Assembly: GCF_003860135.1 (NCBI RefSeq)
Contig: NZ_RQYN01000013.1
Span: forward strand, 1 to 62,826
DNA length: 62,826 nt
Origin: Tannerella forsythia
Lineage (GTDB): Bacteria; Bacteroidota; Bacteroidia; Bacteroidales; Tannerellaceae
Reading direction: 5' to 3'
Position numbers and translations under genes: made by a program. A model generated the notes under the pieces. The model was not told the origin of the DNA and made no database searches. It was given only the letters and a program-made list of their open reading frames with translations. Below are positions 9,751-40,980 of the stretch, in pieces; positions within the stretch are counted from its first letter, which is position 1, and each line of letters opens with the position of its first letter.

Positions 9751-10122
9751 AATCAATCGCTACAGGAATTTTAACTACCCAAGTTGCGGCAAATAAATTC
9801 CGAAAGGAATTTTAACCACTCGATTTGTGGGAAATAAATCGTTACAGGAATTTTAACTACCCGGTTTGCGGCGAATAAATTCCGAAAGGAATTTTAACCA
9901 CTCAATTTGTGGGAAATAAATCGCTACAGGAATTTTAACCAAACAGCGTTGTGGCTAATAAATCTTCACACAGATTGATTACAATCAAGTTGCGGGGAAT
10001 AAATCTTCACGCAGATTGATTAGAATCATCGATGCGGGGAATAAATCTTTACGCAGATTGATTACAATCAAGTTGCGGGAGATAAATCTTCACACAGATT
10101 GATTAAAATCGTTATTGCGGCA
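9751..10122 (+). repeat. Tandem array 1: nine ~41-bp repeats of three sub-types
   Basis: Nine contiguous units of 41 or 42 bp begin at 9751, 9792, 9833, 9874, 9915, 9957, 9998, 10040 and 10081, with partial copies on both sides. Order is A-B-A-B-A-C-C-C-C. A and B units share GGAATTTTAAC; C units carry AGATTGATTACAATC. All end in a G-rich box such as AAGTTGCGG. B units contain the hairpin ATTCC-gaaa-GGAAT and C units AATCT-tcacgc-AGATT; A units pair poorly. The array sits between pdxA and the cytidylyltransferase promoter. There is no spacer, so it is not CRISPR. It shares period and core motif with the arrays at 22369 and 40562. Confidence 0.95.
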
Positions 10123-10191
10123 ACGAAATCGCTGCATCGTTTCCTTGAAAAGGCCAATGCGCCTCTCTTTCGCGTGCGAAGGGGAGTATAA

Positions 10192-10223
10192 ATTGTAAAA
10201 ATTGAAAAAAAGCTGTATCTTTG
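10192..10223 (+). promoter_or_regulatory. Promoter of the lipid head-group-like cluster
   Basis: ATTG at 10192-10195, a 20-bp spacer and TATCTTTG at 10216-10223 match the Bacteroidetes consensus. ATG 10248 follows after 24 bp. The promoter lies just past the end of repeat array 1. Confidence 0.65.
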
Positions 10224-10247
10224 CCCTTCCAGTAAGCTAAAGGAATT

Positions 10248-10769
10248 ATGTTCAAAAATAAAACGATTGTGTATACATCGGGAACATTCGATATGTTCCA
10301 TTACAATCATCTTCGCATGATCAACTATGCACGCAGTCTGGGCGATATCCTCATTGTCGGGGTAAGTACCGATGAGTTGGTTTCTTCATACAAGGCGCCC
10401 CCCATTATTCCGTTCAACGAGCGGATGCAGATTATCGAGGCGCTCAAAACGCCCGATATCGTCATCCCGCAACATACCCTCGATCATACCGAGATTGTCA
10501 AGAAACTCAATATCGACGCTTTTGTGGTAGGCGACGACTGGTACGGGAAATACGACTATCTGAAAGATGCCGACGTACAGGTCTTTTACTTCCCCTACGG
10601 CACGGGCGTTTCCTCGTCTTCGTTGCGCAAGACGATTCACGATTCGTACGAAAAGCATCTGCAAGACGAGCGCAAGGCCAAACCCGTATCGGTAAAAACG
10701 ATGGAAGTTGCTCCGGTAGCGGCCGAGAATACCGCTCCGAAGAAAGCCGCGTCGAAAAAAACAAAGTGA
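10248..10769 (+). CDS. Glycerol-3-phosphate cytidylyltransferase-like nucleotidyltransferase
   Basis: A 173-residue protein of the HxGH nucleotidyltransferase superfamily, closest in look to TagD/GCT enzymes that make CDP-glycerol or a similar CDP-polyol. The first motif is TSGTFDMFHYNH (His 18, His 21), where the usual HxGH glycine is Asn. The second is GVSSSSLRK, in the place of the GxSTT/SSR loop that binds the nucleotide phosphates. The C-terminal ~40 residues are Lys/Ala-rich and look disordered. It is the first gene of a tight cluster with an SDR, a CDP-alcohol phosphotransferase and an acyltransferase. It probably supplies the CDP-activated head group, but the substrate is not readable from the sequence. 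Confidence 0.75.
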   Translation: MFKNKTIVYTSGTFDMFHYNHLRMINYARSLGDILIVGVSTDELVSSYKAPPIIPFNERMQIIEALKTPDIVIPQHTLDHTEIVKKLNIDAFVVGDDWYGKYDYLKDADVQVFYFPYGTGVSSSSLRKTIHDSYEKHLQDERKAKPVSVKTMEVAPVAAENTAPKKAASKKTK

Positions 10770-10771
10770 CG

Positions 10772-11500
10772 ATGGCAAAACAAGCACTGATAACAGGCGG
10801 GACAAAAGGCATCGGGAAAGCGGTGGCCGTATGTCTGGCCAAGGCAGGATATGATTTGCTGCTTACCTACGCATCGGACGAAACAACAGCCGCGAGCCTC
10901 GCAGCCGCGTTGCGCAAAGACCATGCGGTGACGGTCGATGTGTTACAGGCCGATATCACGCGAAAGGAATCGATCGACCGTATCGAGAACCGCCTGAATG
11001 AGGCGGGCATGAAACTCGATGCCGTTGTGCTGAATGCCGGAACGACGTATCGCGCCACGTTCGAAGAGATGAACCTCGCCGAATGGGAACGGCAATTCTT
11101 CGCCAATGTGCATTTTCCGGTGTTCCTGCTTCAGCGCGTCGTGGGACGTATCGAACGGGGAGCGGCCGTCGTGTTCACCGGCTCGTTGATGGGGGTCGAA
11201 CCGCATGCCACGTCGTTGTCGTATGGCGTGACCAAATCGGCCGTTCATGCCCTGACGAAGAACCTTGTCAAATTCCTCGCGCCGTATGGCGTTCGGGTCA
11301 ATGCCGTAGCGCCCGGCTTTGTCGATACCGACTGGCAAAAGAACAAACCGGCCGAAATTCGCCGCAACATCGAGGCCAAAGTGGCGCTGGGGCGTTTCTG
11401 CCGTCCCGACGAAGTGGCGGAAATCTATCGTATGTTGATTGAAAACAGTTATATGAATGGCTCGGTGGTCGTTGCGGACGGCGGCTATGCGTATCGATGA
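10772..11500 (+). CDS. Short-chain dehydrogenase/reductase (FabG-like)
   Basis: A 242-residue SDR. The Rossmann motif TGGTKGIG is near residue 8, the NAG motif follows near residue 90, and the catalytic Ser (TGSLMG) and YxxxK (YGVTK) are intact. The C-terminal GGYAYR fits FabG-like reductases. It starts 2 bp after the cytidylyltransferase stop; ATG 10772 is preferred to the GTG at 10766 because it begins the beta-strand directly. A true FabG usually sits with fatty-acid genes. Here the neighbours point to reduction of a sugar- or polyol-phosphate or a lipid intermediate. Substrate unknown. Confidence 0.8.
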   Translation: MAKQALITGGTKGIGKAVAVCLAKAGYDLLLTYASDETTAASLAAALRKDHAVTVDVLQADITRKESIDRIENRLNEAGMKLDAVVLNAGTTYRATFEEMNLAEWERQFFANVHFPVFLLQRVVGRIERGAAVVFTGSLMGVEPHATSLSYGVTKSAVHALTKNLVKFLAPYGVRVNAVAPGFVDTDWQKNKPAEIRRNIEAKVALGRFCRPDEVAEIYRMLIENSYMNGSVVVADGGYAYR

Positions 11501-11503
11501 AAA

Positions 11504-12415
11504 ATGAGTGAAAAAGAATATGAAGCATCCCTGAAGTCGATCGAGACGGAGAATATCATCGATTTGTACTTCTACCGTCCCATTGGTTTCCGGATAGCCC
11601 GCATGCTCTGCCCTACGGGGATTACCCCCAATATGATTACCGTTCTTTCTATTTTTGTCGGGGCCGGGGCGGGATGGTTGTTCTATTTTACGAATAACCT
11701 CACGTATACGCTGCTCGGTATCCTGCTGCTCGTCTTTGCCAACATACTCGACTGTGTAGACGGACAATTGGCGCGTCTGACCGGCATCAAATCCGAAATC
11801 GGACGTATCCTCGACGGCATAGCCGGCGATATTTGGTTTACCGTTATTTACGTGGCACTGGCTTTGCGCCTCACGCACCTCTACGGAACGGCATGGTTCT
11901 TCGTGCCTGCCGTCGCGGCCGGACTGTCGCATCTCCTCCAAGCCGGCATCACCGATTATTACAAAACGCTTCATCTCTATTTTGTCAGCAAAGAAAAAGG
12001 CAAAGAATTTCAGCGTACCGAGCAGGTCAAGGCGCAACGAAAGGAGATCAAGAAACGCGTAAACAAATTTTTTTATGTGTTATACGGCTCATACACTTGG
12101 GTGCAGGAACGGTTGACTCCCGCTTTGCAGGCCATGCTGCGTACCTTGCATGCCCGTTACGGAGACGATATCCCCGAATCCATCCGGCTGCGCTTCCGCC
12201 GGCAAAGCCGCCGGCTGATGAAACGAACCATCGACTGGATGACGTTCAACGGTCGTACTTTCGTGCTCTTCGCTGTGATGCTTCTCAGTGTTCGATGGAG
12301 CGGGCTGGTATGGGTTTATTTTGCATACGAAATCGTCGTTTTAAATACGGTACTTTACGTATCCGTCCGCAAACACGAGCGTATGTGTGCCGCCATCTTG
12401 AAAGAGGAAGCATGA
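11504..12415 (+). CDS. CDP-alcohol phosphatidyltransferase family protein
   Basis: A 303-residue integral membrane enzyme of the CDP-alcohol phosphotransferase family. The signature lies at residues 83-109: DCVDGQLAR, then G100, then LDGIAGD. In the canonical pattern the last two Asp residues are four apart; here they are five apart (D104 and D109), as if one residue were inserted. Several hydrophobic helices surround it. A charged, KEKGKEFQRTEQVKAQRKEI-like cytoplasmic loop of about 60 residues splits the membrane part. It starts 3 bp after the SDR stop and overlaps the acyltransferase start by 4 bp (ATGA). The likely role is transferring an activated alcohol onto, or from, a CDP-lipid; donor and acceptor unknown. 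Confidence 0.85.
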   Translation: MSEKEYEASLKSIETENIIDLYFYRPIGFRIARMLCPTGITPNMITVLSIFVGAGAGWLFYFTNNLTYTLLGILLLVFANILDCVDGQLARLTGIKSEIGRILDGIAGDIWFTVIYVALALRLTHLYGTAWFFVPAVAAGLSHLLQAGITDYYKTLHLYFVSKEKGKEFQRTEQVKAQRKEIKKRVNKFFYVLYGSYTWVQERLTPALQAMLRTLHARYGDDIPESIRLRFRRQSRRLMKRTIDWMTFNGRTFVLFAVMLLSVRWSGLVWVYFAYEIVVLNTVLYVSVRKHERMCAAILKEEA

Positions 12416-13239
12416 AAAAAACAGTACTCGACATACGCGATTTACAGCAGTTGGCGCCCGTTTTCAAAAAAAAATGGGCGGCTTTTTTGGGGAAACGGCT
12501 CATGAAATGGCTCAACATCGGCAAGGTCAATACGATTCACGCCCGGTACAGCCACCTGCGTGGAGCCGAATTTACCTCGGCCATACTCGCCGACCCCATG
12601 ATGGACGTGAAATACAGGATTCATCACCCCGAACGCCTGAAAACACTCCCCGAAGGAGCGTTTATCACCGTTTCCAATCACCCCATCGGATCGATCGACG
12701 GAATCGTACTGATCGATCTTTTCGCCTCGCGGCGAAAAGACTTCTGCGTGATGGTCAACGGCATCTTGGAAAAAATCGGAGCGATGGCCGACAATTTCAT
12801 TGCCGTTACGCCGAGGACGGGCGGACAGACGGAAACGAATCCGGCCAATGTGAATGGCGTGCGTGCTTCGCTCGAGCGCATCAAAAACGGTCATCCGATG
12901 GGATTCTTCCCGGCCGGCGCCATGTCGTTCCGCAACAAAGAAGGAAAGATTCGCGACCTCCCGTGGACACACAGCGTCATTCGTCTGATACGTAAGGCCG
13001 GCGTGCCGGTGTATCCCGTCTACTTCGATTGCCGAAATTCGAAATTCTTCTATTGGCTCGGACAAATCAGTTGGAAAATCAGGCTCCTGCGCGTGCCTAC
13101 CGAAGCATTCAACAAACAGGGCCAAACGCTCGACGTACATATCGGGCAACCGATTGCGCCCGAAACGATCCGGAGCTATACCGATGATAAAGCGCTGGCC
13201 GATTTTCTCTATCGTACCACGTACGGTCAGAAAGGGTAA
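12412..13239 (+). CDS. Lysophospholipid acyltransferase-family protein
   Basis: A 275-residue member of the LPLAT/PlsC superfamily. The acyltransferase block 1 reads SNHPIGSIDG (His 90, Asp 96), the NHPxGxxDG form seen in many Bacteroidetes proteins rather than the plain HX4D box. Block 3 is GFFPAGAMSFR. ATG 12412 overlaps the upstream stop as ATGA, which indicates translational coupling. An in-frame reading extends much further upstream through the phosphotransferase gene, but that part is an out-of-frame shadow. With its three neighbours it suggests acylation of a lipid that carries the head group made by this cluster. Confidence 0.85.
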   Translation: MKKTVLDIRDLQQLAPVFKKKWAAFLGKRLMKWLNIGKVNTIHARYSHLRGAEFTSAILADPMMDVKYRIHHPERLKTLPEGAFITVSNHPIGSIDGIVLIDLFASRRKDFCVMVNGILEKIGAMADNFIAVTPRTGGQTETNPANVNGVRASLERIKNGHPMGFFPAGAMSFRNKEGKIRDLPWTHSVIRLIRKAGVPVYPVYFDCRNSKFFYWLGQISWKIRLLRVPTEAFNKQGQTLDVHIGQPIAPETIRSYTDDKALADFLYRTTYGQKG

Positions 13240-13291
13240 ACACCTATCTGTTTGGCCGGCTTCTGCCGATGCGGGGATTTTCAGATGTTTT

Positions 13292-13323
13292 TTTGGTCAT
13301 CTCCCGAAAATAAGGTAATTTTG
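13292..13323 (+). promoter_or_regulatory. Promoter before the sigma-54 activator gene
   Basis: TTTG at 13292-13295, a 20-bp spacer and TAATTTTG at 13316-13323 match the consensus fully; ATG 13353 follows after 29 bp. Confidence 0.7.
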
Positions 13324-13352
13324 TCAGGTCAAACTGAAAAAATTACAGCATC

Positions 13353-14534
13353 ATGATGACAGAAGGTATACAACAAATCAAACAACGATTTGGCATCATC
13401 GGCAATAGTCCGGCGCTCAACCGGGCGATTGACGTAGCGCTTCAGGTTGCGCCCACCGATCTCTCCGTGCTGATTACCGGCGAGAGTGGCGTCGGCAAGG
13501 AAAACTTTCCGCAAATCATTCATCAGAATAGTCCGCGTAAGCATGGACAATACATTGCTGTCAACTGTGGTGCCATCCCCGAAGGGACGATCGATTCCGA
13601 ATTGTTCGGACACGAAAAAGGATCGTTTACGGGCGCGTTGGCCGACCGGAAAGGCTATTTCGAAGTGGCCGACGGCGGCACGATTTTCTTAGACGAGGTC
13701 GGCGAACTGCCTATCCCCACTCAGGCGCGTTTGTTGCGGGTGCTCGAAAGCGGCGAATTTATCAAGGTCGGCTCCTCGAAGGTGCAGAAGACGGATGTGC
13801 GCATCGTGGCCGCCACGAATGTCAATCTGACAGAGGCCGTAGCGCAAAATCGTTTTCGGGAAGATTTGTATTACCGGCTCAACACCGTGCCCATCGTTAT
13901 TCCTCCGTTGCGCGACCGGCCCGAAGATATCTTGCTGCTGTTCCGCAAATTCGCGAGCGACTGTGCCGAGAAATACCGGATGCCCGCCATTCAGCTCGAA
14001 GAAAATGCTCGCCGCCTGCTGCTCAGTTACCGCTGGCCGGGTAACGTCAGAGAGTTGAAGAATGTCACGGAGCGCATTTCCGTCATCGAGCGTGATCGCA
14101 CCATCACGGCCGATGAACTGCGTCAGTACCTGCCCAATCTCGAAATGCAAAAACTCCCGGTGCTGGCGCATCAGAAAGAAGACCAGAAACTCTTTCATTC
14201 CGAACGAGAAATTCTGTATCAGGTGTTGTTCGATATGAAGAAAGATGTGAACGAACTAAAAAAACTCGTGCACGACATTATGGGCGGGAACATCCAGATG
14301 GCCGTACCCGTCGAACAGCCCGATGCACCGACCTATACGACGCATCCCATTGATACGTCGCCCATTCAGGAAGCCGAAACCGTAGAAGAGCTACTGGCGC
14401 TCGACGATGTGGAAAAAGAAATGATTCGCCGGGCATTGGAGAAACATAACGGTCGCCGTAAAAATGCCGCGGCCGAGCTTAAAATCTCGGAACGTACCCT
14501 GTACCGAAAAATTAAGGAATATGGTCTCGACTAA
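13353..14534 (+). CDS. Sigma-54-dependent transcriptional activator without receiver domain
   Basis: A 393-residue bacterial enhancer-binding protein. It opens straight into the AAA+ domain: Walker A GESGVGKE (43-50), sigma-54 contact loop GSFTGA (90-95, the Ser variant of GAFTGA), Walker B IFLDEVGE (111-118) and the arginine-finger region FREDLYYRLN. A Fis-type helix-turn-helix ends the protein (NAAAELKISERTLYRKIKEY). There is no N-terminal receiver, PAS or GAF domain, so input must come through a partner or the central linker. It overlaps lptE by 14 bp, tying it to an envelope operon. Confidence 0.9.
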   Translation: MMTEGIQQIKQRFGIIGNSPALNRAIDVALQVAPTDLSVLITGESGVGKENFPQIIHQNSPRKHGQYIAVNCGAIPEGTIDSELFGHEKGSFTGALADRKGYFEVADGGTIFLDEVGELPIPTQARLLRVLESGEFIKVGSSKVQKTDVRIVAATNVNLTEAVAQNRFREDLYYRLNTVPIVIPPLRDRPEDILLLFRKFASDCAEKYRMPAIQLEENARRLLLSYRWPGNVRELKNVTERISVIERDRTITADELRQYLPNLEMQKLPVLAHQKEDQKLFHSEREILYQVLFDMKKDVNELKKLVHDIMGGNIQMAVPVEQPDAPTYTTHPIDTSPIQEAETVEELLALDDVEKEMIRRALEKHNGRRKNAAAELKISERTLYRKIKEYGLD

Positions 14535-15057
14535 GAAAATCACCGCAACTCTGTTGACGCTTGCCACGCTGCTTATGCTCGAGGCCTGCTCGATCTCCTA
14601 CAAATTCAGCGGGACATCGATCGATTATACGGTCGTGAAATCTATTTCCATCAAGGATTTTCCCAATATGGCGCCGCTTGTCTACGGTCCTTTGGCTCAA
14701 AGATTCACCGACGAGCTGAAAGACCGGTATGTGCGTCAGACGAAGCTGAGCGTACTGCGCGAGAACGGAACACTCGACTTGGAAGGCGAAATCACGGGCT
14801 ACGAACTGACGCCGCAGGCGGTGAAAGATACACCCGACGGAAGAGCGTCGTTCGCCACCTTGACGCGTCTGACGGTTACCGTCAGGGTGCGTTATGCCAA
14901 TCAGGTGAAACCGGAGGAAGGATTTGAACAGTCTTTCTCTTCGTATCGCGACTTCGACAATACGAAAACCATCGATCAGGTACAGGATGAATTGTGTAAG
15001 GAGATTATCAATGATCTGGTCGGACAGATTTATAACGCAACGGTAGCCAATTGGTAG
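14521..15057 (+). CDS. lptE: LPS-assembly lipoprotein LptE (Bacteroidetes type)
   Basis: A 178-residue lipoprotein with lipobox MLEAC (Cys 23), then CSISYKFSGTSIDY, typical of Bacteroidetes LptE. This protein plugs the LptD barrel at the outer membrane. Predicted alternation of strands and helices continues through QRFTDELKDRYVRQTKL and the C-terminal amphipathic helix CKEIINDLVGQIYN. ATG 14521 lies inside the end of the sigma-54 activator gene (14-bp overlap), so the two are probably translationally coupled. lptD is not in the window. Confidence 0.85.
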   Translation: MVSTKKITATLLTLATLLMLEACSISYKFSGTSIDYTVVKSISIKDFPNMAPLVYGPLAQRFTDELKDRYVRQTKLSVLRENGTLDLEGEITGYELTPQAVKDTPDGRASFATLTRLTVTVRVRYANQVKPEEGFEQSFSSYRDFDNTKTIDQVQDELCKEIINDLVGQIYNATVANW

Positions 15058-15060
15058 ACG

Positions 15061-15822
15061 ATGACGTGTGAGGAATTATATCAACTGATGGAGGCGCCGG
15101 CCATGTTGTCGGAGAAAACGCTACCCGAACTCAAACAAATCGCGGAAGATTTTCCCTACTTTCATGCCGTTCAGATGCTTTATCTCAAAAATCTGCAGGC
15201 AACGAACGATCTTCGCCTCAATATTGAACTGAAAAAAAGAGCCGTTTGTGTCCCCGACAGGACGCAACTCTTCCTTTGGCTCGAAGGGGCACGTTACGAC
15301 AAGCAACCCCGTACCCAAACCGTGGAAGATCAAGAGGGGGAAAAGCAACCTTCGCGGATCGATGAATTTTTATCCGTCCCGATGGACGGAACGGAAACGA
15401 AATCGTCGAAGCCTCTTTTTGAACCGTCTGCTTCGTTGGATTATATGCGCTGGCTGACCGAGAAAGATACCGATGCCGCTGCTTCGAAAAATAAATTGCG
15501 TCATCAAGACCTGATCGATTCTTTTATCGAAAGCGGAAACGAACGGATCGGAAGACTTACGCCCGATCAGGTTGCAAAAGACCATGCCGTAGATAGCGAA
15601 GAGCCTGAGCAGCAGCATGCGACCGAATCCGATCATAGCACTCTGGATAACTCGTATTTTACTGAAACACTGGCTCATGTTTATATTCGCCAGAAACGTT
15701 ACGAGAAAGCGCTCGAGATTATTAAAAGTTTAAGTTTGAAATATCCGAAAAAAAATATTTACTTTGCAGACCAAATCCGATTCTTGGAAAAATTGATTAT
15801 TCATTCTAAACAAAAAATATAA
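15061..15822 (+). CDS. Conserved Bacteroidetes protein with C-terminal TPR-like helices
   Basis: A 253-residue cytosolic protein I cannot name. The N-terminus (EELYQLMEAPAMLSEKTLPE) and the following DFPYFHAVQMLYLKNLQ look like a helical domain. The middle is acidic and low-complexity. The C-terminus (ETLAHVYIRQKRYEKALEII and the residues after it) forms one TPR-like repeat. It starts 3 bp after lptE and its stop overlaps the secG start (TAATG), so the lptE-this-secG run is a single transcription unit. Its conserved place beside lptE and secG suggests an envelope or secretion support role. Confidence 0.75.
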   Translation: MTCEELYQLMEAPAMLSEKTLPELKQIAEDFPYFHAVQMLYLKNLQATNDLRLNIELKKRAVCVPDRTQLFLWLEGARYDKQPRTQTVEDQEGEKQPSRIDEFLSVPMDGTETKSSKPLFEPSASLDYMRWLTEKDTDAAASKNKLRHQDLIDSFIESGNERIGRLTPDQVAKDHAVDSEEPEQQHATESDHSTLDNSYFTETLAHVYIRQKRYEKALEIIKSLSLKYPKKNIYFADQIRFLEKLIIHSKQKI

Positions 15823-16190
15823 TGTACGTATTTTTATCGATTTTGATTTTTATTGCATCCGTATTCCTGATATTGATTGTATTGGTGCAAAACTCAAAAG
15901 GAGGCGGGCTGGCTTCCGGATTCTCTTCGTCGAATCAGATTATGGGCGTTCGTAAAACGACGGACTTCCTTGAAAAAGCGACATGGGCATTGGCCGGCAC
16001 AGTCGTTGTCTTGAGTATTCTCATTACTTCGTTCATTCCTCATGGTGAGTCGACGATGCAACAACAGCAGTCCGAAATACAACAGCAGGTGAACGATGCG
16101 GTGATGGTAGACCCCAATGCGGTAGGACCGAACTTCGGAACAGCGCAACCGGATGCTGCACAGCAACAACCCGAAACACCGGCCGAATAA
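15822..16190 (+). CDS. secG: Preprotein translocase subunit SecG
   Basis: A 122-residue membrane protein with two transmembrane helices separated by the SecG signature QNSKGGGLASGFSSSNQIMG, a cytosolic loop. The second helix is WALAGTVVVLSILITSF. A Gln-rich tail follows, common in this phylum. SecG assists SecYE in protein export. The start codon overlaps the upstream stop by one base. A hairpin terminator follows at 16240. Confidence 0.95.
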   Translation: MYVFLSILIFIASVFLILIVLVQNSKGGGLASGFSSSNQIMGVRKTTDFLEKATWALAGTVVVLSILITSFIPHGESTMQQQQSEIQQQVNDAVMVDPNAVGPNFGTAQPDAAQQQPETPAE

Positions 16191-16239
16191 GAGCGGAGAA
16201 GCGTAACGAAACGCTTTGTATCTGAATTTTTCGTATAAG

Positions 16240-16283
16240 CGAGGCTGTCCGGAAAGTCCCACCAGACTTTGCCGACAGCCTCG
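16240..16283 (+). terminator. Hairpin terminator after secG
   Basis: CGAGGCTGTC pairs perfectly with GACAGCCTCG, extended inward by GGAAAGTC/GACTTTGCC. Only a short, mixed T stretch follows, so it may act in either direction. Confidence 0.55.
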
Positions 16284-16360
16284 TTCGCATTATCTATCAA
16301 GACATCTTCATGAAAGATCAACCCTGACAACTTCGTTTCACGTCTATTCATAAAACTTCC

Positions 16361-17017
16361 ATGAAACAAATCTATGGCATGATTTTCTTTTTACTGTTTT
16401 TTGCTGTTGCCGGTATGGCACAGAACGACAGTATCAGCATCCGCTTTATTTCGCTGAACCGTCAATTGACTCTGCTCAATGACTTGAACAGCATTCAGTA
16501 CACCGGATTTACGTGCACCGATACTCTGGCGCACGGCAAACAATTCCTGTTCTACATCGAAGAATACGAGAACGGCGAGAGAGTGCGTCCCGACTCAACG
16601 GGTCTGGAATGTAAGGAACAGCGGATACCGATGGAAGTAAACGGGAAAACCGTCGAATATCGGTATGACCCTTGCCGTTACAGAACGTTTTTGCCGGGCG
16701 ACAGTGTTTTTACGGTGATGCTTGCCGGAAAGCTCGAAGCCGATACCTTCCGCCTGCTGATGGATTATCCCGCTATCCGTCTGACGAAAAAACTCAGAGG
16801 AAATGCGGCTTATTCCCTTCGAACGATTTCTTGCAATAGTGATGGAGGAATGAGACTTCCTGTGGCTAAACTTACTCCCGTTTTTACATATACTCCTCCT
16901 TACGATACCGGAAAAGGCATGGCTTCGTACTGTGTCCTCGATGCGGGAAACGCGAAGGAGCGTTACGCGACATTCGGCATCAAACATTACTATATCATTT
17001 ACCTCATCATACGATAG
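16361..17017 (+). CDS. Exported hypothetical protein with shared signal peptide
   Basis: A 218-residue secreted protein of unknown function. The signal peptide (MKQIYGMIFFLLFFAVAGMA, cleavage before QND) is almost the same as those of the next two genes, although the mature sequences differ. The mature part is beta-rich and holds several cysteines (near residues 48, 85, 103, 158 and 190) that could form disulfides. No catalytic motif is seen. It precedes two thioredoxin-like proteins, so it may be one of their substrates or partners; this is only context. Confidence 0.65.
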   Translation: MKQIYGMIFFLLFFAVAGMAQNDSISIRFISLNRQLTLLNDLNSIQYTGFTCTDTLAHGKQFLFYIEEYENGERVRPDSTGLECKEQRIPMEVNGKTVEYRYDPCRYRTFLPGDSVFTVMLAGKLEADTFRLLMDYPAIRLTKKLRGNAAYSLRTISCNSDGGMRLPVAKLTPVFTYTPPYDTGKGMASYCVLDAGNAKERYATFGIKHYYIIYLIIR

Positions 17018-17068
17018 AATTCGTATGGTAGATGATTTTTTTATTTATTCATTAAATACCCTCATTTT

Positions 17069-17893: not shown

Positions 17894-17933
17894 TACATAA
17901 CATAGATATTTACCAATAAAACAATCTCATCTT

Positions 17934-22368: not shown

Positions 22369-22614
22369 CTTCGGGCAATCGCCCGAATGTTAAAACAAAG
22401 TGCGGGAGCCTTCGGGCAATCGCCCGAATGTTAAAACAAAGTGCGGGAGCCTTCGGGTAATCGCCCGAACGTTAAAACAAAATGGGGGAGCTTTCGGGCA
22501 ATCGCCCGAATGTTAAAACAAAGTGCGGGAGCTTTCGGGCAATCGCCCGAACGTTAAAACAACATGCGGGAGGCTTTTCACGGCTCTTAATTCGTTCAAA
22601 CATGATGCGGCGGC
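22369..22614 (+). repeat. Tandem array 2: five 41-bp repeats plus one decayed copy
   Basis: Units start at 22369, 22410, 22451, 22492 and 22533, each exactly 41 bp and nearly identical. A clearly related but decayed sixth unit fills 22574-22614. Each unit contains the perfect hairpin TTCGGGC-AATC-GCCCGAA, then TGTTAAAACAAAGTGCGGGA. The array lies between a plus-strand gene and the minus-strand sigma factor, so it is 3' to both. It is bracketed by a 65-67 bp direct repeat. The whole interval 22138-22859 has no convincing gene. Confidence 0.95.
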
Positions 22615-22724
22615 CTTTTCAGGGTGGTTCGATACGCTGCAAAAAACAACGAGCATCGGTTCGAAGCATAAGGTTAGTCTCCAAGCATGGCGATAGAAAC
22701 GTTTTTATCCCGGCTTCCACGTCC

Positions 22725-29025: not shown

Positions 29026-29029
29026 TCTG

Positions 29030-31959: not shown

Positions 31960-32042
31960 TTCAAAAAAACAAATCGGAAGTTGTTATGTTAATTAATTGT
32001 TTAATTAGTTAGTTATTTAGGCGGAAAGAAACGCTGAGTTTC

Positions 32043-32080
32043 CAAGCGCGGGGGGATGACCTTCGCGCTTGTCTTTTCTT
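32043..32080 (+). terminator. Hairpin terminator after pgk
   Basis: CAAGCGCG at 32043-32050 pairs perfectly with CGCGCTTG at 32064-32071 and is followed by TCTTTTCTT. The rest of 31960-32347 is AT-rich near the start, then GC-rich and structured, with no gene I can support. Confidence 0.6.
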
Positions 32081-32347
32081 GGGGTAAAACGCGGGCGTCT
32101 CTGCCCCGATTCAGATACCTTACTAATAAGGGGGGCTTTACGTGCGCTCCCCTCTTCTCGAAATCATGAAAATCTGCACGAACAGTCCGTGTAACGGTGT
32201 ACGGATCGCAATCGGGTTTGTCCATGCAATCCTTATGGATAACCAGATCATCCATCTTCACTTCTATTGTTAAAATAATAAAATACAACGGGGATCAAAC
32301 CGGCAGCTGCCGTTTTATATTACTTTTGTGCGAAAATACAAAACAAG

Positions 32348-33748: not shown

Positions 33749-35066
33749 CGACACGCGAAGCGAACGGACGGACGCCCTCTCGCTGACGGAGCTGAACCGG
33801 TTGGTGAAGACCGTTATCAACGAGGCACTGCCCGAAACGTATTGGGTACGTGCCGAAACGAGTGACGTGCGCGTCAACGCGGCTTCCGGACACTGCTACC
33901 TCGAATTCGTGGAAAAAGACGAGACTTCGGGACAACTCGTCGCCAAGTCGCGCGGCACGATCTGGGCGCGCAATTTCGCGATATTGAGAACGTATTTCGA
34001 GCAGGAAACGGGGCAAACCTTTATCTCCGGCCTGAAGGTATTAGTCAATGTCTCCGTCGAATATCACGAGCTGTACGGACTTTCGTTGACGGTACACGAC
34101 ATCGATCCGTCCTACACGGTGGGCGACATGGTCAAAAAGCGCATGGAGGTGATCCGCCGTTTGCAGGAAGAAGGCGTATTCGACCTGAATAAAGAACTTA
34201 CATTAGCCATACTTCCTCAACGTATCGCCGTGATTTCCTCCCCGACGGCAGCCGGATACGAAGACTTCGTCAACCAACTGACCCATAACGACTACGGCTT
34301 TCCGTTCTACGTCAAACTTTTCCCGGCACTGATGCAGGGCGAGAAGACGGAAGAGAGCGTGATCGCCGCATTAGACCGGATTTATGCGCATCGCGAGCTG
34401 TTCGACGCCGTCGTACTGATTCGCGGCGGAGGATCGGCGGCCGATCTAAGCAGCTTCGACTCGTACGCGCTGGCAGCCAACTGCGCGCAATTTCCCCTGC
34501 CCATCCTCACCGGTATCGGGCACGAACGCGACGATTCGATCGTCGACAAGGTAGCCCATACGCGCATGAAAACGCCGACGGCCGTGGCCGCGTTTCTCAT
34601 CGGTCGCATGGCGGAGCAACTTGCCCTGCTCGACGAGCTGCGGGAAACCGTCTGCGAAGCGACACGCAACCAACTGACAGCCAAGAAAACGATATGGCAG
34701 ATGCTGGCCACGCGTTTTCCGGTGTTCATCACCGGACATCTTGAGCGTCATCGGACGGGTTTACACACACTGGTAGCCCGTCTGTCGTCCGTGCCACAGC
34801 TCCTCGAGAAGCACGCGGAACAACTCGAACAGGCTCCCACGCATATTCAAAAGGCGGTCCATGCGATGCTGATCCGTCATACGCACGAGCTTTCGCTCAG
34901 CGAACAACATATCAGGCTGGCATCGCCGGATCATATCCTGAAACGAGGCTATACATTGACGCTCAAGGATGGAAAAATCGTCAAACATGCGGCCGACTTA
35001 TCAGCAGGCGACGAGATATCCGTCAGGTTTACTGACGGCGAACGAAAAGGAAAAATAGTTACATAA
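33735..35066 (+). CDS. xseA: Exodeoxyribonuclease VII large subunit
   Basis: A 443-residue catalytic subunit of exonuclease VII, which degrades single-stranded DNA. The N-terminal OB fold (LTELNRLVKTVINEALPETY, AETSDVRV) is followed by the nuclease core: LPQRIAVISSPTAAGYEDF, VVLIRGGGSAADLSSFD and ILTGIGHERDDSIVD. The C-terminal coiled part is shorter than in E. coli. It begins 14 bp inside the protease gene and is followed by xseB after 15 bp. Confidence 0.95.
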   Translation: MDFFNDTRSERTDALSLTELNRLVKTVINEALPETYWVRAETSDVRVNAASGHCYLEFVEKDETSGQLVAKSRGTIWARNFAILRTYFEQETGQTFISGLKVLVNVSVEYHELYGLSLTVHDIDPSYTVGDMVKKRMEVIRRLQEEGVFDLNKELTLAILPQRIAVISSPTAAGYEDFVNQLTHNDYGFPFYVKLFPALMQGEKTEESVIAALDRIYAHRELFDAVVLIRGGGSAADLSSFDSYALAANCAQFPLPILTGIGHERDDSIVDKVAHTRMKTPTAVAAFLIGRMAEQLALLDELRETVCEATRNQLTAKKTIWQMLATRFPVFITGHLERHRTGLHTLVARLSSVPQLLEKHAEQLEQAPTHIQKAVHAMLIRHTHELSLSEQHIRLASPDHILKRGYTLTLKDGKIVKHAADLSAGDEISVRFTDGERKGKIVT

Positions 35067-35081
35067 ACAGATAAAACGACC

Positions 35082-35285
35082 ATGGCAGAAAAAAAGGAGT
35101 CATACAATAAAGCGATAGAAAAGCTTCGGGGCATCATTCAAGATATCGAAAGCGGTGAACTGGATGTGGACGTGCTTTCGGAAAAGGTGAAAGAAGCCAG
35201 CCGGCTGATTAAGCTGTGCAGAGAAAAGCTCTTCAAAGCCGACGAAGAAGTGAAGAAGATTCTCGATACATTGGAGCAGGCATAA
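35082..35285 (+). CDS. xseB: Exodeoxyribonuclease VII small subunit
   Basis: A 67-residue helical subunit. The sequence YNKAIEKLRGIIQDIESGEL followed by DVDVLSEKVKEASRLIKLC is the XseB signature. It sits between xseA and ispD, 15 bp and 3 bp away, so the three form one unit. Confidence 0.93.
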   Translation: MAEKKESYNKAIEKLRGIIQDIESGELDVDVLSEKVKEASRLIKLCREKLFKADEEVKKILDTLEQA

Positions 35286-35288
35286 TAG

Positions 35289-35990
35289 ATGAAACGCACG
35301 GTCATTCTTGTGGCAGGCGGCAAAGGCCTGCGTATGGGCGGCGAGCTGCCGAAGCAGTTCATCCCGCTGCACGGTCGCCCGGTTCTGATGCACACCATGA
35401 ACGCTTTCTTCCGCTGGGATGCGACGGCCGAACAGGTCATTGTCCTTCCCGAGGAACAACAGGCTTACTGGCAGATGCTCTGTCGCGAATTAAACTGCGC
35501 GATACCGCACCGTGTAGTGCATGGAGGAGAGACCCGTTTCCATTCGGTACGTAACGGATTGCAAACGGTCGATGGAGACGGATGGATCGCTGTACATGAC
35601 GGTGTACGCCCTTTCGTTTCGGAAGTTGTGATCGACGCGTGCTTCGCAGCAGCCGGGCAGTTCGGAGCGGCAGTTCCTGTCCTTCCCATGATCGACTCCG
35701 TGCGCGAAGTCGACGGGACGCAAAGCCGTCCGTTCGACCGGGAACGATTGCGCATCGTGCAGACACCACAAGTCTTTCGCGCCGACTGGTTGCGCGATGC
35801 CTACGAACAACCTTACCAACCACACTTTACCGACGACGCTTCACTCGTCGAAGCAGCCGGATATCCCATTCATTTAGTCGACGGTAACCGTGAAAATATC
35901 AAAATCACCACCCCCATCGACCTGCAATGGGCGCAAATACTGACGACAGAAGAAACAGAATTGCATACGTCAGCGCTCCCTCGTCCTTAA
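35289..35990 (+). CDS. ispD: 2-C-methyl-D-erythritol 4-phosphate cytidylyltransferase
   Basis: A 233-residue enzyme of the MEP isoprenoid pathway making CDP-methylerythritol. Nucleotide-binding loop VAGGKGLRMGGELPKQFIPL; VHGGETRFHSVRNGL; VHDGVRPFV; and QTPQVFRADWL are all as expected. It starts 3 bp after xseB. The last ~10 residues are nonconserved. A bidirectional hairpin terminator follows. Confidence 0.95.
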   Translation: MKRTVILVAGGKGLRMGGELPKQFIPLHGRPVLMHTMNAFFRWDATAEQVIVLPEEQQAYWQMLCRELNCAIPHRVVHGGETRFHSVRNGLQTVDGDGWIAVHDGVRPFVSEVVIDACFAAAGQFGAAVPVLPMIDSVREVDGTQSRPFDRERLRIVQTPQVFRADWLRDAYEQPYQPHFTDDASLVEAAGYPIHLVDGNRENIKITTPIDLQWAQILTTEETELHTSALPRP

Positions 35991-36022
35991 CGCCCCCCTA
36001 TTTCACCCATTCTTACACACCT

Positions 36023-36066
36023 AAAAAAAGGGTGTGCCCAAACATCGCGCTTTGACACACCCTCTC
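36023..36066. terminator. Bidirectional hairpin terminator between ispD and the nlpE-like gene
   Basis: GGGTGTGCCCAAA pairs, with one bulge, with TTTGACACACCC. A run of seven A before it acts as the T-tract for the minus-strand nlpE-like gene, while CTCTCTATAT follows on the plus strand. Convergent genes end on both sides. Confidence 0.7.
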
Positions 36067-36208
36067 TATATCTCTCTCCAGCCGTTTTATCGGAAATCAA
36101 TGTTCACATATAAAAGATTAATCCGAGAGGTAAAATGAATTCTTTCTTCTTGTAAACATCCGATATAGACAAAAGCGAGAGATTCTACAAAAGTCACTCA
36201 ATCTATTC

Positions 36209-36643
36209 TTACTTCTTGGTAAGCACATATTGATCGGCCAATTCGCCGACAGGCTTGTTGCCTTCTTTATCCAGCATAGTAACCTTGTCGCCTTCGATCA
36301 GCCACTTTGTCATATCTTCTCCTTCTCCTAAAGTTACGATGTTGCTGGCAGCGTCCCACATAATCGTTCCTGACGATTCGAAGCGCCCATCTTCTTTTTC
36401 CTGATAAACTTGCGTCAGCTTATACGTCTGGTCGCTCATGAGTTCAAGGGTCGTTTCGATGCCGCTGCAATCGGCACACGGAAGAACGCCGTAATATACG
36501 CCGGCCTTGTCAAAAGCGGGTGCTTGTACGGTTTCAATCATCTGATCGTTCTCGCTGGTTTCCGTATTTTTGTTACCGGGTTTGCAAGATACGAGTCCAA
36601 ACAGGAGTGCTGCGACTCCCCAAAAAAACAAATTCTTTTTCAT
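36209..36643 (-). CDS. NlpE-like copper-resistance/envelope-stress lipoprotein
   Basis: A 144-residue lipoprotein: lipobox GLVSC (Cys 20), a short linker, then an NlpE N-terminal domain with YYGVLPCADCSGIETTLEL (CxxC at 56-59). NlpE of E. coli senses surface and envelope stress; Bacteroidetes homologues hold only this domain, as here. Single gene, with a shared terminator beyond its stop. Function in this phylum is inferred. Confidence 0.85.
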   Translation of the reverse strand: MKKNLFFWGVAALLFGLVSCKPGNKNTETSENDQMIETVQAPAFDKAGVYYGVLPCADCSGIETTLELMSDQTYKLTQVYQEKEDGRFESSGTIMWDAASNIVTLGEGEDMTKWLIEGDKVTMLDKEGNKPVGELADQYVLTKK

Positions 36644-36775
36644 ACGATATAATAATTATGTTGAGTTAATCCAAAAACTAAAACAAACTTGCTGGTAAAA
36701 TGTTCACTACACCGCCGAAAAGACGTAAACATTTCACATCTTTTCGACCATTTAAACACTTTTGGCCATTAGGTG

Positions 36776-38251
36776 TTATTCATTCGAAGGCCTGAGTTCC
36801 CGATCCATGGCAGCGGCAGCCCTGCGACCGTCGCCCATGGCGAGGATGACGGTGGCTCCGCCACGCACGATATCGCCTCCGGCATATACATCGGGTAGAG
36901 AAGAACGCATATCGTCTTCATGAACGATGATGGTGCCTTTCGATGAGATCTCCAATCCTCCGAATGCTCTTGGGATTAATGGATTAGGGGATACGCCTAC
37001 ACTGACAATAACCTCGTCGACTTCAAGCGTTTCTACAGCGCCTTCGATCGCTACGGGTCGGCGCCGTCCGGAGGCATCGGGCTCTCCCAGCTCCATCTTC
37101 TGCAGGCGCATCTGTTTCACCCGCCCATTTTCGTCACCCAGATACTCGATCGGGTTATGTAGTGTCAGAAATTCGATTCCTTCTTCTTTGGCATGCTTCA
37201 CTTCTTCCAGTCGGGCCGGCATTTCTTCTTCGCTGCGACGGTAGACGATCATGGCACGCGAAGCACCTAAACGGCGTGCCGTACGTACCGAGTCCATCGC
37301 CGTATTCCCTCCGCCGATCACCGCCACACGTTTACCCTGCAACACCGGCGTATCGGAATCTTCGGATGCCGCATGCATCAGATTGACGCGAGTCAGGTAC
37401 TCGTTCGACGACATGACTCCGATCAGGTTCTCGCCGGGGATATTCATAAAATTCGGCAAGCCGGCGCCACTGGCCACGAAAATCCCTTTGAAACCGTCGG
37501 CATGGAGATCATCGTAGCTGATCGTTTTTCCTACGATGCAATTTGTAATGAAGTGAACGCCCATGCGCCGCAGACCGTCGATTTCGAATTCGACGATTTG
37601 GTTAGGAAGACGGAATTCCGGTATCCCGTATTTCAATACACCGCCGATCTCGTGCAATGCTTCGAACACGGTCACCTCATATCCGCGCTTGGCCATATCG
37701 CCGGCAAACGAAAGTCCGGCAGGCCCGGAGCCGACGACGGCGATACGTATGCCGTTGGCCGGCATCATCTCCGGAGTCGACGCCTGACCACTCTCACGTT
37801 CGTAATCCGCCGCGAAGCGTTCAAGATAACCGATGGCTACGGGTTCTTTTTTCATTTTCAGATGTACACACTGTGCCTCGCACTGTTTCTCTTGCGGGCA
37901 GACACGACCGCAGACAGCCGGCAGGCTGCTCGTTTCTTTCAGCGTCTGAGCGGCCTTCAAGAAATCACCCGCTTCGATATATTTAATAAACGTAGGGATA
38001 TTGATGCTGACCGGACACCCGCTCATACATGTGGGATTGGGGCAGTCGAGACATCGCTGTGCTTCTTGCATGGCTTCGTCGGCCGTAAGCCCGAGGTTGA
38101 CTTCTTCATGATTACCGCTACGGTAGTCGGCATTAAGCTCATTCATCCGTACACGCGGAATATCGGTGCGCTCTTTGTTTTTCTTCGTTTTGCGTAAGGC
38201 TTCTCTCCAAGGTTCGGCACGCCGTACCGTAATGAGTTCTTGTGTTGTCAT
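36776..38251 (-). CDS. nfnB: NADPH-dependent glutamate synthase small-subunit-like / NfnB flavoprotein
   Basis: A 491-residue FAD/NADPH-binding iron-sulfur protein. The N-terminal ferredoxin-like cysteines read CLDCPNPTCMSGCP, then CGRVCPQEKQCEAQC. The FAD site is AVVGSGPAGLSFAGDMAKRG, the NADPH site AVIGGGNTAMDSVRTARRLG, and the C-terminal signature YAGGDIVRGGATVILAMGDG. Alone it could be a glutamate-synthase beta subunit, but its start overlaps nfnA by 4 bp. The pair therefore fits electron-bifurcating NADH-dependent ferredoxin:NADP oxidoreductase. Confidence 0.9.
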   Translation of the reverse strand: MTTQELITVRRAEPWREALRKTKKNKERTDIPRVRMNELNADYRSGNHEEVNLGLTADEAMQEAQRCLDCPNPTCMSGCPVSINIPTFIKYIEAGDFLKAAQTLKETSSLPAVCGRVCPQEKQCEAQCVHLKMKKEPVAIGYLERFAADYERESGQASTPEMMPANGIRIAVVGSGPAGLSFAGDMAKRGYEVTVFEALHEIGGVLKYGIPEFRLPNQIVEFEIDGLRRMGVHFITNCIVGKTISYDDLHADGFKGIFVASGAGLPNFMNIPGENLIGVMSSNEYLTRVNLMHAASEDSDTPVLQGKRVAVIGGGNTAMDSVRTARRLGASRAMIVYRRSEEEMPARLEEVKHAKEEGIEFLTLHNPIEYLGDENGRVKQMRLQKMELGEPDASGRRRPVAIEGAVETLEVDEVIVSVGVSPNPLIPRAFGGLEISSKGTIIVHEDDMRSSLPDVYAGGDIVRGGATVILAMGDGRRAAAAMDRELRPSNE

Positions 38252-39060
38252 ACTGATTCCGGTTGTTTTTTATCGATTCCTTTATAGGCATTTAAACGCA
38301 TCATCATCTCGTCGAAATCGACCTGATGTGCGTCGAATTCAGGCCCGTCTACACAGACGAACTTTGTCTGTCCGCCTACTGTCACGCGGCAGGCGCCGCA
38401 CATGCCTGTTCCGTCGACCATAATTGTATTTAGCGAGGCCACTGTCGGTACCTGATATTTCTTGGTCAGTTCGGAGACAAATTTCATCATGATGGCCGGG
38501 CCGATGGTCACACATAAATTGACGGGTTCACGGTTGATTACCGATTCGACCCCGTTCGTTACCAGTCCTTTCGTTCCGTATGATCCGTCGTCCGTCATGA
38601 TCAGCACTTCGTCCGAGCAGGCACGCATCTGTTCTTCCAGGATGACCAGCTCTTTCGTTCGTGCGGCCAAAACGACAATCACGCGGTTTCCGGCACGATG
38701 AAAGGCTTCGACGATAGGGAGTAAGGGAGCAACGCCGACTCCTCCGCCGGCACAGACTACCGTTCCAACTTTTTCGATATGGGTGGCTTGTCCTAATGGA
38801 CCGACTAAATCCGTAATCGATTCGCCGGCATTCAGCTCGCACAATTTTTTGGACGAACGACCGATGGCCTGAACGACCAACGTTATCGTGCCTTTTGATG
38901 TGTCGGAGGCTGCAATCGTCAGCGGAATGCGTTCTCCCTTTTCGCCTACACGGACAATCACAAAGTGTCCAGCCTTACGCGAACGCGCAATCAAGGGCGC
39001 TTCCACCTCCAGCTTTACGACGTGAGGAGAAAAATACTCTTTACTTACAATTTTGTTCAT
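38248..39060 (-). CDS. nfnA: NfnA: ferredoxin:NADP oxidoreductase FAD/[2Fe-2S] subunit
   Basis: A 270-residue flavoprotein of the dihydroorotate-dehydrogenase electron-transfer type. FAD site ERIPLTIAASD, NAD site CAGGGVGVAPLLPIVEAF, and [2Fe-2S] cysteines in TGMCGACRVTVGGQTKFVCV. I start it at MNKIVSKEYF, which matches the conserved N-terminus; an in-frame ATG eight codons upstream is less likely. It overlaps nfnB by ATGA. The complex couples reduced ferredoxin and NADH to NADPH formation. Confidence 0.9.
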   Translation of the reverse strand: MNKIVSKEYFSPHVVKLEVEAPLIARSRKAGHFVIVRVGEKGERIPLTIAASDTSKGTITLVVQAIGRSSKKLCELNAGESITDLVGPLGQATHIEKVGTVVCAGGGVGVAPLLPIVEAFHRAGNRVIVVLAARTKELVILEEQMRACSDEVLIMTDDGSYGTKGLVTNGVESVINREPVNLCVTIGPAIMMKFVSELTKKYQVPTVASLNTIMVDGTGMCGACRVTVGGQTKFVCVDGPEFDAHQVDFDEMMMRLNAYKGIDKKQPESV

Positions 39061-39076
39061 GATATTTTTCCGTTTG

Positions 39077-39460
39077 TTATTCAAATAATTCTTTGTCTCT
39101 GACTAACATTAGAATGGCCGAATGCGGAAGGATCAGGTATTTCTCGTCGTTCAGGCTGACCTCGTAAGCCGAACTTTGCAGATAGACGGCCAGATCTCCT
39201 TCCTTGGCTTGTAAAGGCAGATAAGAGCTTTTTTCGTCTTTCTTCTTCCATGGCTCATCTTCGTCGGTGGGCAAGGGCAGAGGATAACCCGGACCAATAC
39301 GGATAACGTAGCCTGTCTGTAGTTTTTCTCCTTCCTGTACTAAGGGAGGGAGTAATAAACCCGATTTGGTTTTTACCTGCGGATTGGTGGGTTTAACCAA
39401 TACCTTATCTCCCACCATCAAAAACTTGTCAAACGCTTTATGGTCTATTGACAGTTGCAT
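39077..39460 (-). CDS. GroES-like co-chaperone family protein
   Basis: A 127-residue GroES-fold paralog. The N-terminal part VGDKVLVKPTNPQVKTKSGL with LLLPP and the C-terminal KYLILPHSAILMLVRDKELF are GroES-like. A charged insertion (LPTDEDEPWKKKDEKSSYLP) replaces the region around the mobile-loop to roof. It is not the groES of a groESL operon: groEL is absent. It lies first in a unit with nfnA and nfnB, 16 bp upstream of nfnA. Function unknown. Confidence 0.8.
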   Translation of the reverse strand: MQLSIDHKAFDKFLMVGDKVLVKPTNPQVKTKSGLLLPPLVQEGEKLQTGYVIRIGPGYPLPLPTDEDEPWKKKDEKSSYLPLQAKEGDLAVYLQSSAYEVSLNDEKYLILPHSAILMLVRDKELFE

Positions 39461-39485
39461 TTCTTTTCTTTTTTTATAACAGACG

Positions 39486-39517
39486 CAAAAGTAATATTTA
39501 TATGTAAAGAAGCCAAA
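39486..39517 (-). promoter_or_regulatory. Promoter of the GroES-like/nfnA/nfnB operon
   Basis: On the minus strand TTTG (39517-39514), a 20-bp spacer and TACTTTTG (39493-39486) match the consensus exactly, 25 bp before the ATG. It lies wholly between the neighbouring genes. Confidence 0.75.
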
Positions 39518-40447
39518 TTAATCCTTTACCAGTGCGCGAAAGGTGGATGGGATAGGTGTTTCGAAAGTCTCCTCACGTCCTGTGACCGGATGGATGAACG
39601 AGAGCCGGAAAGCATGTAGCATGAGGCGTTGCGCCGGGTCGGTCTTTGCTCCGTATTTCGGGTCGCCGGCGACCGGATAGCCGGCTTCTTCCATTTGGGC
39701 GCGTATTTGATTCTTACGACCCGTTTCCAACTCGCACTCCACAAGCGAGTAGCGGTCGTTGCTCTGTAATACGCGATACTGCATTACGGCCTCCTTGCCG
39801 CGCGAAGCATCGGTGCAGAACACTTTCATACGGCTGTTTTCGGCCAGATAGGAGACAAGCCTGTCCTGTGCAGGATCAGGTCTGCCTTCGACCACGGCTA
39901 CGTACGAGCGGCGCGTAATCATGGTCGACCAATCGTTGCGCAGTTTCTCCTGTACGCCTTTGTTACGTGCGAACATCATCAGCCCCGAAGTGCCCTTATC
40001 TAAACGATGAAGCACGAATACCCGATTACGCGGATCTTGCTCGCGCACATAGCCCGACAGGAAGGCATAGGCGGTGCGCTCTTGCGCTTGTGATTCGGAA
40101 ACTGACAACAGACCGTCTTTCTTCTCAATGACGATAAGCGATTCGTCTTCCCAAACAATACGCAAATAAGGATTATTGAACGTTGTCTTGGCGCGTTCAT
40201 GGCTGATCAACACCTCATCACCCGGACGCAAGGGGGTGTCGAAGTGTGTTTTTACTTTACCGTTTACCCATATCTGCCCGTGTTTGAGCAGGCTTTTAAC
40301 CGAGCTTTTGCTGCGGTCTTTAAGCAGGTCGAAGAGGTAAGGAAGTAGCGTGGTGTCTTGTTTGACCGTTGCACGCTGTCCGCGCGGAAGTGTTTTGTTG
40401 CTTGACGAGAAGCGGTTACCACGACCATATTTCCGTTGTGATGTCAT
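39518..40447 (-). CDS. RluA-family rRNA/tRNA pseudouridine synthase
   Basis: A 309-residue pseudouridine synthase. The N-terminal S4 RNA-binding domain (SVKSLLKHGQIWVNGKV) is followed by the RluA core with active-site Asp in VLHRLDKGTSGLMMFA. Next come RRSYVAVVEGRPDPAQ, CELETGRKNQIRAQ and AGDPKYGAKTDPAQR. The N-terminus before the S4 domain is basic and low-complexity. I use ATG 40447. The exact target uridine (RluC- or RluD-like) cannot be told. Upstream lies repeat array 3. Confidence 0.9.
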   Translation of the reverse strand: MTSQRKYGRGNRFSSSNKTLPRGQRATVKQDTTLLPYLFDLLKDRSKSSVKSLLKHGQIWVNGKVKTHFDTPLRPGDEVLISHERAKTTFNNPYLRIVWEDESLIVIEKKDGLLSVSESQAQERTAYAFLSGYVREQDPRNRVFVLHRLDKGTSGLMMFARNKGVQEKLRNDWSTMITRRSYVAVVEGRPDPAQDRLVSYLAENSRMKVFCTDASRGKEAVMQYRVLQSNDRYSLVECELETGRKNQIRAQMEEAGYPVAGDPKYGAKTDPAQRLMLHAFRLSFIHPVTGREETFETPIPSTFRALVKD

Positions 40448-40561
40448 CTTTACTTTTATTTTACAGCCGCCAAAGTTACGCAATTATCCGCGAATCGGGC
40501 GGAGATCGCGTTTTTTGTCACAGGCTGGCGCGTTAAAATGACTTTGTTGCAACGGTATTCT

Positions 40562-40980
40562 CCGGAAGTCTCCGCACGGTTCATTAAGATTTCCGACGAG
40601 GCACGAAAGTCTCCGCGAAACTCGCTAAGTCTTCCGTCGATGTCCGGAAGTCTCCGCACGGTTTATTAAGATTTCCGACGAGGCACGAAAGTCTCCGTGA
40701 AACTCGCTAAGTCTTCGGTTGGTGTCCGGAAGTCTCCGCATGGTTCATTAAGATTTCCGACGAGGCACGAAAGTCTCCGTGAAACTCGTTAAGTCTTCCG
40801 TCGGTGTCTGGAAGTCTCCGCACGGTTCATTAAGATTTCCGACGAGGCACGGAGGTCTCCGCGAAACTCGCTAAGTCTTCCGTCGGTGTCCGGAAGTCTC
40901 CGCATGGTTCATTAAGATTTCCGACGAGGCACGAAAGTCTCCGCGAAACTCGCTAAGTCTTCCACCAGTGTCCGGAAGTC
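40562..40980 (-). repeat. Tandem array 3: ten 41-bp repeats in an 82-bp higher-order pattern
   Basis: Ten contiguous 41-bp units alternate between two diverged types: one with GGAAGTCTCCGCACGG (starts 40562, 40644, 40726, 40808, 40890), the other with GAAAGTCTCCGCGAAAC (starts 40603, 40685, 40767, 40849, 40931). A 9-bp piece of another unit closes the array. The two types agree at roughly two thirds of positions. Read on the minus strand a unit contains CGGAA.. then CTTAATGAACCGTGCGGAG, the same core as array 2. Junctions form the hairpin CTTCCG-gacatcga-CGGAAG. The array lies 5' of the RluA-type gene and 3' of a decayed activase. Confidence 0.95.

Follow-up and report, generated by a model that had tools for sequence, protein, structure and literature searches.

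Three tandem repeat arrays lie within the window, by which we mean the whole analysed stretch of 62,826 nucleotides from Tannerella forsythia. Although they look different from one another, the original prediction regarded them as one repeat family with an exact 41-bp period, a conserved core and a preserved hairpin. This raises the question of what unites the three arrays and to which genetic system they belong. By TRF and unit chaining they were delimited as follows:

Array 1: 9744..10130, plus strand, about nine units of 41-42 bp.
Array 2: 22369..22614, plus strand, about six units of 41 bp.
Array 3: 40561..40980, minus strand, about ten units of 41 bp.

Array 1 is flanked by pdxA (stop at 9684) on one side and a cytidylyltransferase-like gene (start at 10248) on the other. 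In its first block, reaching to about 9949, the right arm GGAATTT is combined with the left arms AAATTCC and AAATCG in alternation; the block after about 9949 consists of AAATCT/AGATT units. Some of its units pair poorly, as predicted. In array 2, the first units carry the dyad TTCGGGC/GCCCGAA, and in array 3 two alternating unit types form an 82-bp higher-order repeat. According to unit chaining, the steps are 41 bases throughout arrays 2 and 3, whereas 3 of the 9 junctions of array 1 show steps of 42, so that the exact 41-bp period holds for the former two only. Common to all three arrays, and in the same register, are a GCGG element and a dyad. To detect such arrays uniformly, we required a self-identity of at least 0.6 over 82 nt with the best lag at 40-43 or 80-86, within 1 kb up- or downstream of a gene. 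Applied to 156 overlapping tiles of the window, this test gave 7 positives, and the self-similarity of the window at the test lags was strongest within arrays 1-3. An Rfam scan of the window at the gathering score returned tRNA only and left the arrays unmatched. CRISPR loci also place an array beside a protein gene, with unique spacers between the repeats. The present arrays have no spacers of this type, as the whole unit repeats head-to-tail, which rules out a CRISPR identity.

DNA searches, pattern searches and a model search revealed about 20 further array places in the same genome, several of them at contig ends, and when the model was run on 40 other genomes of the genus, 4 of them also had arrays, as the original prediction had anticipated. 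At three of the own-genome places, the next gene encodes a DUF6261 protein (PF19775). One relative of array 2 (L012) is located inside a coding sequence, which we take to be the tail of an RlmL-like methyltransferase; here the period of 42 corresponds to 14 residues and stays in frame. We then scored the window arrays against the regions upstream of the 15 DUF6261 genes of this genome, using 15 shuffles each. Array 1 was best matched by the array preceding L110 (z 24.7 for the second block and 6.8 for the first), array 2 by those preceding L116 and L112 (z 17.1 and 14.1), and array 3 by those preceding L111 and L113 (z 16.5 and 11.1). In addition, a piece of the L112 array matched positions 22549-22636, overlapping array 2. 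The corresponding proteins, L110, L116/L112 and L111/L113, belong to one clade of eight own-genome paralogs (support 99/92), which explains why the three arrays looked like one family and bears out that claim. Since the units resemble arrays in front of DUF6261 genes of the same genome, and no DUF6261 frame occurs anywhere in the window, the sequence comparisons support the view that arrays 1-3 are orphan members of DUF6261-linked array families.

How general is this link? None of 14 control genomes has a DUF6261 match. When the upstream regions were read, nearly all 15 DUF6261 genes of the own genome were found to be preceded by 41/42-bp arrays, each with its own sequence. The complete same-genus genome G002, a 3-Mb chromosome in one contig, harbors at least 51 DUF6261 genes (51 of 61 candidates were scored). 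Across all loci, the uniform test detected a 40-43-bp array upstream of 88 of 112 DUF6261 genes, compared to 7 of 110 downstream flanks:

Own genome: array upstream at 10/15 loci, downstream at 0/15.
G002: array upstream at 44/51 loci, downstream at 6/51.
Other same-genus loci: array upstream at 19/25, downstream at 1/23.
Loci outside the genus: array upstream at 15/21, downstream at 0/21.

The 25 same-genus loci are those returned by the search, about one per genome, rather than every match among the relatives. The 21 loci outside the genus (one from the set of relatives and 20 from the phylum sample) come from 11 genomes, over 7 of which the 15 positives are spread. One further locus, L280, was excluded from the 112 as it fell below the Pfam cut-off. 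Of the five own-genome misses, three (L109, L110 and L112) are truncated at the end of a contig. The unit of L106 measures 42 bp but its best lag is 104, and L115 gives a weak signal (0.48, lag 82). For two of the seven misses in G002, L169 and L170, the array is located downstream. DUF6261 is patchily distributed, as 12 of 395 sampled genomes of the phylum have a match (11 above the cut-off, the own genome included); among the relatives, 28 of 61 do. Named carriers are a Tannerella MAG, with L198-L200, and, from another genus, Prevotella nigrescens (NZ_CP082843.1). In the latter, an exact 41-bp array with TGCCGAggtTCGGCA (self-identity 0.95 at lag 41) precedes a gene annotated as 'DUF6261 family protein'. 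The annotated start of this gene lies inside the array, and a start agreeing with the relatives follows it. At 18 of 50 loci, the distance from the array end to the start codon is at most 60 nt, and a promoter scan of array loci yielded eight forward and five reverse matches. In the same-genus genome G001, arrays are present without DUF6261.

The sequences of the arrays are mostly unrelated between loci; what recurs is the period and, in about half of them, a dyad. The period of the 88 upstream arrays is 42 in 49 cases, 41 in 36, 40 in two and 43 in one. Plotting the 41/42 label on the protein tree, in which 44 of 61 rows could be labelled, required 12 changes, of which well-supported branches make 9 unavoidable; among 500 label shuffles, 45-56 gave values as low, indicating that the choice between 41 and 42 is hardly inherited. 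An inverted repeat at p<=0.05 against the unit's own shuffles was present in 27 of 57 consensus units, where about three are expected. In 27 DUF6261-linked dyad arrays, the substitution level is 0.133 within the arms and 0.202 outside.

Pairing was further analyzed on a gapless alignment of 26 dimers from 13 own-genome arrays, the rows of which were picked by hand from 53 non-redundant ones of 68. Within the dyad columns (9-17/22-30 plus the repeat), 64.3% of the cells are paired compared to 42.7% after shuffling, and the covariation score is 0.488 compared to 0.194 with its maximum at slide 0; as the rows are related and hand-picked, the finding that 0 of 500 shuffles paired as highly is not read as a probability. 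The arms thus change in sequence from array to array and keep their pairing, in line with the predicted covariation. The predicted core fared less well: the GCGG element is common to the arrays, but GAA-n-TTAA is not family-wide, and the final GG of GCGG is all that stays the same in the 26 rows.

The pairing had been interpreted as a hairpin, and one explanation would indeed be that the arrays act as RNA, with a hairpin-containing leader or trailer that is a target of binding or cleavage or brings ribosomes to a stall, and with DUF6261 as either the regulated or an RNA-binding product. The covariation in the orphan dimers agrees with this, as does the proximity of 18 of 50 arrays to the start codon, which would allow a promoter to precede the array. 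However, selection at the RNA level should favor G-U pairs, and no such preference is seen: transitions giving G-T and A-C number 75 and 77 in the 27 dyad arrays, and 33 and 38 in the 26-row orphan alignment. Moreover, the loops measure 0-3 nt in 19 and 0-2 nt in 17 of the 27 dyads. B-DNA has 10.5 bp per turn, and 42 bp equal four turns. The G-T/A-C parity and the short loops fit dyads in duplex DNA about four helical turns apart, unlike RNA; of the proposed hairpin, the conserved pairing is supported and the RNA reading is not. Sites lined up on one helix face would be expected to keep a narrow spacing and dyad symmetry while their sequence changes.

The core had been proposed to read in the direction of the gene lying 5' of the array. 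This applies to the three window arrays, and in this genome array 1 and seven relatives near enough to an upstream gene sit behind its 3' end in the same orientation in 8/8 cases, as an RNA function would suggest. It does not extend to a rule, as several GC-rich relatives face other ways and a gene 3' end occupies that side in 9 of the 18 listed G002 orphans. At these 18 places, the four possible arrangements occur 6, 5, 4 and 3 times, a mixture that argues against an RNA function, as does the outcome of the Rfam scan. Taken together, we consider it unlikely that the arrays act as RNA.

The orphans were found in both genomes surveyed. For at least 9 of the 15 own-genome DUF6261 genes (40 of 64 first-look candidates scored), the array family has further copies away from the gene; both copies of the L103 family are situated at contig ends. 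In G002, 20 array pieces were queried, and among the matches listed at least 18 orphan places from seven families were identified, 18/18 of them intergenic according to gene calls by a codon-score script. No DUF6261 frame was present among 3,893 frames in the window and 43 orphan loci, and the positive controls were found in 5/5 cases; for the own-genome copies that emerged solely from the array-family search, the gene-less status rests on the 15-gene genome survey instead. Dispersed palindromic intergenic units, as in REP/RAYT systems, are hence seen here, with a dyad above shuffles limited to 27/57 units.

Over 50 loci, the similarity of the arrays shows a weak correlation with that of the proteins (r 0.193, 0/2000 permutations). 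The seven closest protein pairs, which are 60-77% identical, have array similarities of 0.34-0.57, where the background is about 0.40, so that turnover seems to be faster in the units than in the proteins; the measure is ungapped and understates similarity, and the closer copies L155-L157 and L172/L173, among which arrays are shared, were left out. A comparison of the pdxA-coaD-like site across nine same-genus genomes showed the following occupancy:

Window: 563 bp, array 1.
G004: 401 bp, array 1 family with fewer units.
G002: 449 bp, an unrelated 42-bp array.
G001: 369 bp, a unique spacer and no array.
Six other same-genus genomes: a short gap only, about 10-55 bp where read.

At the array 3 site, about five to six units of the same type were counted by eye in G004, and none are present in G001. 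Similarly, the orthologs L111 and L198, the proteins of which are 93% identical, are preceded by about nine and, counted by eye, about four units.

DUF6261 is an uncharacterised family, and the array link is its first genomic context. Prediction gives a bundle made of helices throughout, with no evident catalytic residues, and no known DNA-binding fold was recognised in it. All 61 partner proteins analyzed match DUF6261 in Pfam; the other matches are DMP19 (two members), SPO22 (one) and CCDC39 (one), and none of the 61 matches a transposase, replication or partition family. Only R76, L154 and R184 are conserved at 90% in the 61 sequences, which lack any set of near-invariant His, Tyr or acidic residues.

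At the sequence level, our data demonstrate a link of gene and array in several Bacteroidota genera, with a narrow period and mostly unrelated sequences, as well as dyads in roughly one unit in two, dispersed copies of the same families that lack the gene and copy-number differences at orthologous sites. Very probably, a DUF6261 gene and its upstream 41/42-bp tandem array form a two-part system, with the window arrays as its orphans. Each unit would then be a binding site in duplex DNA, one per about four helical turns, and the bound proteins would line up along one helix face. From the gene-array linkage we infer that DUF6261, or a complex containing it, may recognise dyads both in its own array and in related orphans, by which it might control its own gene and mark or insulate the orphan sites; slippage would build new arrays, retaining only spacing and symmetry. 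Several observations speak against DUF6261 as the reader, namely the lack of a recognised DNA-binding fold, unlike arrays beside similar proteins, the roughly one half of units without a clear dyad and the G001 arrays without DUF6261. We give the whole explanation, including binding of the dyads by DUF6261 or its complex, an even chance. More doubtful is that a new class of many parallel protein-array pairs in Bacteroidota acts in trans on orphans and divides the genome into addressable sites.

Alternatively, the array might serve as a promoter element of variable copy number to which a common host factor binds, and DUF6261 would merely be the switched gene that does not bind. The unlike arrays beside similar proteins, the copy-number difference between L111 and L198 and the period near 4 x 10.5 bp would agree with such an element, which is nonetheless similarly improbable to an RNA function, as it leaves unexplained why DUF6261 has arrays in several genera and why each family retains its sequence in trans. 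A REP-like selfish nature, with the arrays as non-autonomous DNA and DUF6261 as a maintenance or mobilising protein, is less probable still. It would account for copies being both gene-linked and orphan and for a pdxA-coaD-like site that is occupied, differently occupied or empty among same-genus genomes, but DUF6261 is devoid of the near-invariant His, Tyr or acidic set. That neutral minisatellites reside near DUF6261 by chance is very improbable: tandem arrays do grow by slippage, and some are decayed or absent (24/112 misses), but the strong upstream bias, a period held to 40-43 across mostly unrelated sequences and the dyad excess all stand against it.

The two-part system accounts for a set of repeats at which the assembly of its own genome breaks, and it raises the question of how a DNA array replaces its whole sequence yet holds a 41-42-bp period. 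If DUF6261 proteins bind the arrays, this would be the bacterial equivalent of a satellite DNA that comes with proteins dedicated to binding it, and dozens of parallel protein-array pairs could be compared within one cell. If the arrays are addressable sites, they would exchange their sequence quickly but hold on to spacing and symmetry.

Among known systems, REPs occur singly or in pairs, whereas the present arrays are long, run in a single direction and keep one period. The TnpA-REP (RAYT) transposase is of the HUH kind, and DUF6261, unlike this partner, is without the residues of an HUH tyrosine transposase; with 61/61 partners being DUF6261 and no near-invariant His or Tyr, a partner of that kind is ruled out. 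As far as the accessible parts of the sources describe it, the REP/BIME partner is the tyrosine transposase TnpA-REP (RAYT), and REP/BIME elements share with the present arrays that they are intergenic palindromic units, both gene-linked and dispersed, with the class tied to a resident gene (PMC2817692, PMC8266576). The original prediction had considered kinship to the BrickBuilt MITE of Porphyromonas gingivalis, which in the accessible part of its description has a leader and a tail whose terminal inverted repeats closely resemble those found in insertion sequences (PMC4596501). BrickBuilt likewise forms intergenic head-to-tail repeats in many genome copies, in another genus of Bacteroidales, but its unit of 23 nt, compared to 41/42 nt here, rules out that the window arrays are BrickBuilt, and that part of the source makes no link to DUF6261 (PMC4596501). 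In the open-access literature we found no description of such a system, whether under DUF6261, Tannerella repeats or 42-bp Bacteroidetes arrays, and the accessible part of PMC13298647 mentions neither DUF6261 nor 'tandem'. The DUF6261-array system is apparently undescribed. Iterons and partition-site arrays are direct repeats at helical spacing beside the gene of their binding protein, and in this they resemble the present arrays. However, a replicon has one or few of them, whereas here at least 51 genes occur in one chromosome, most with their own array.

In G000, the genome from which the window derives, nine contigs (C2, C125, C169, C172, C173, C182, C183, C199 and C216) have ends within or beside arrays of the 41/42-bp type, and the assembly therefore seems to be broken by these arrays. 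At L106 (G000:C161:99.3k), one of the loci carrying a gene of the uncharacterised DUF6261 family, 42-bp steps are intermixed with 20/62-bp steps, and the dyad TTTCAGAA/TTCTGAAA at times occurs as two copies in succession.

A repeat related to the array-2 unit was also found inside a coding sequence (L012:1441-1716; G000:C205:33813-34000), where it lies in frame within the C-terminal tail of a methyltransferase gene, presumably RlmL-like. Here, the period of 42 corresponds to 14 residues, SGxYPKGENKxKxP. A gene at L067:3844-4344, which adjoins another array-2 relative, gave weak Pfam matches to AAA_33/Zeta_toxin. Within the window, array 3 is adjoined by a gene remnant (40981-41460, minus strand), which we take to be pyruvate-formate-lyase-activating-enzyme-like and which keeps a single reading frame in its C-terminal part only.

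In G001, a 99% complete genome of the same genus, nine matches to the model built from array units were obtained, while a family match search of this genome did not find DUF6261. Its array-2 site holds about one unit, which is of the array-1 type. In G002, also of this genus, the same gene pair flanks an orphan array, that is, one without a DUF6261 gene, at both 2.26 Mb (L244) and 1.61 Mb (L245), as if the segment had been duplicated together with its array.
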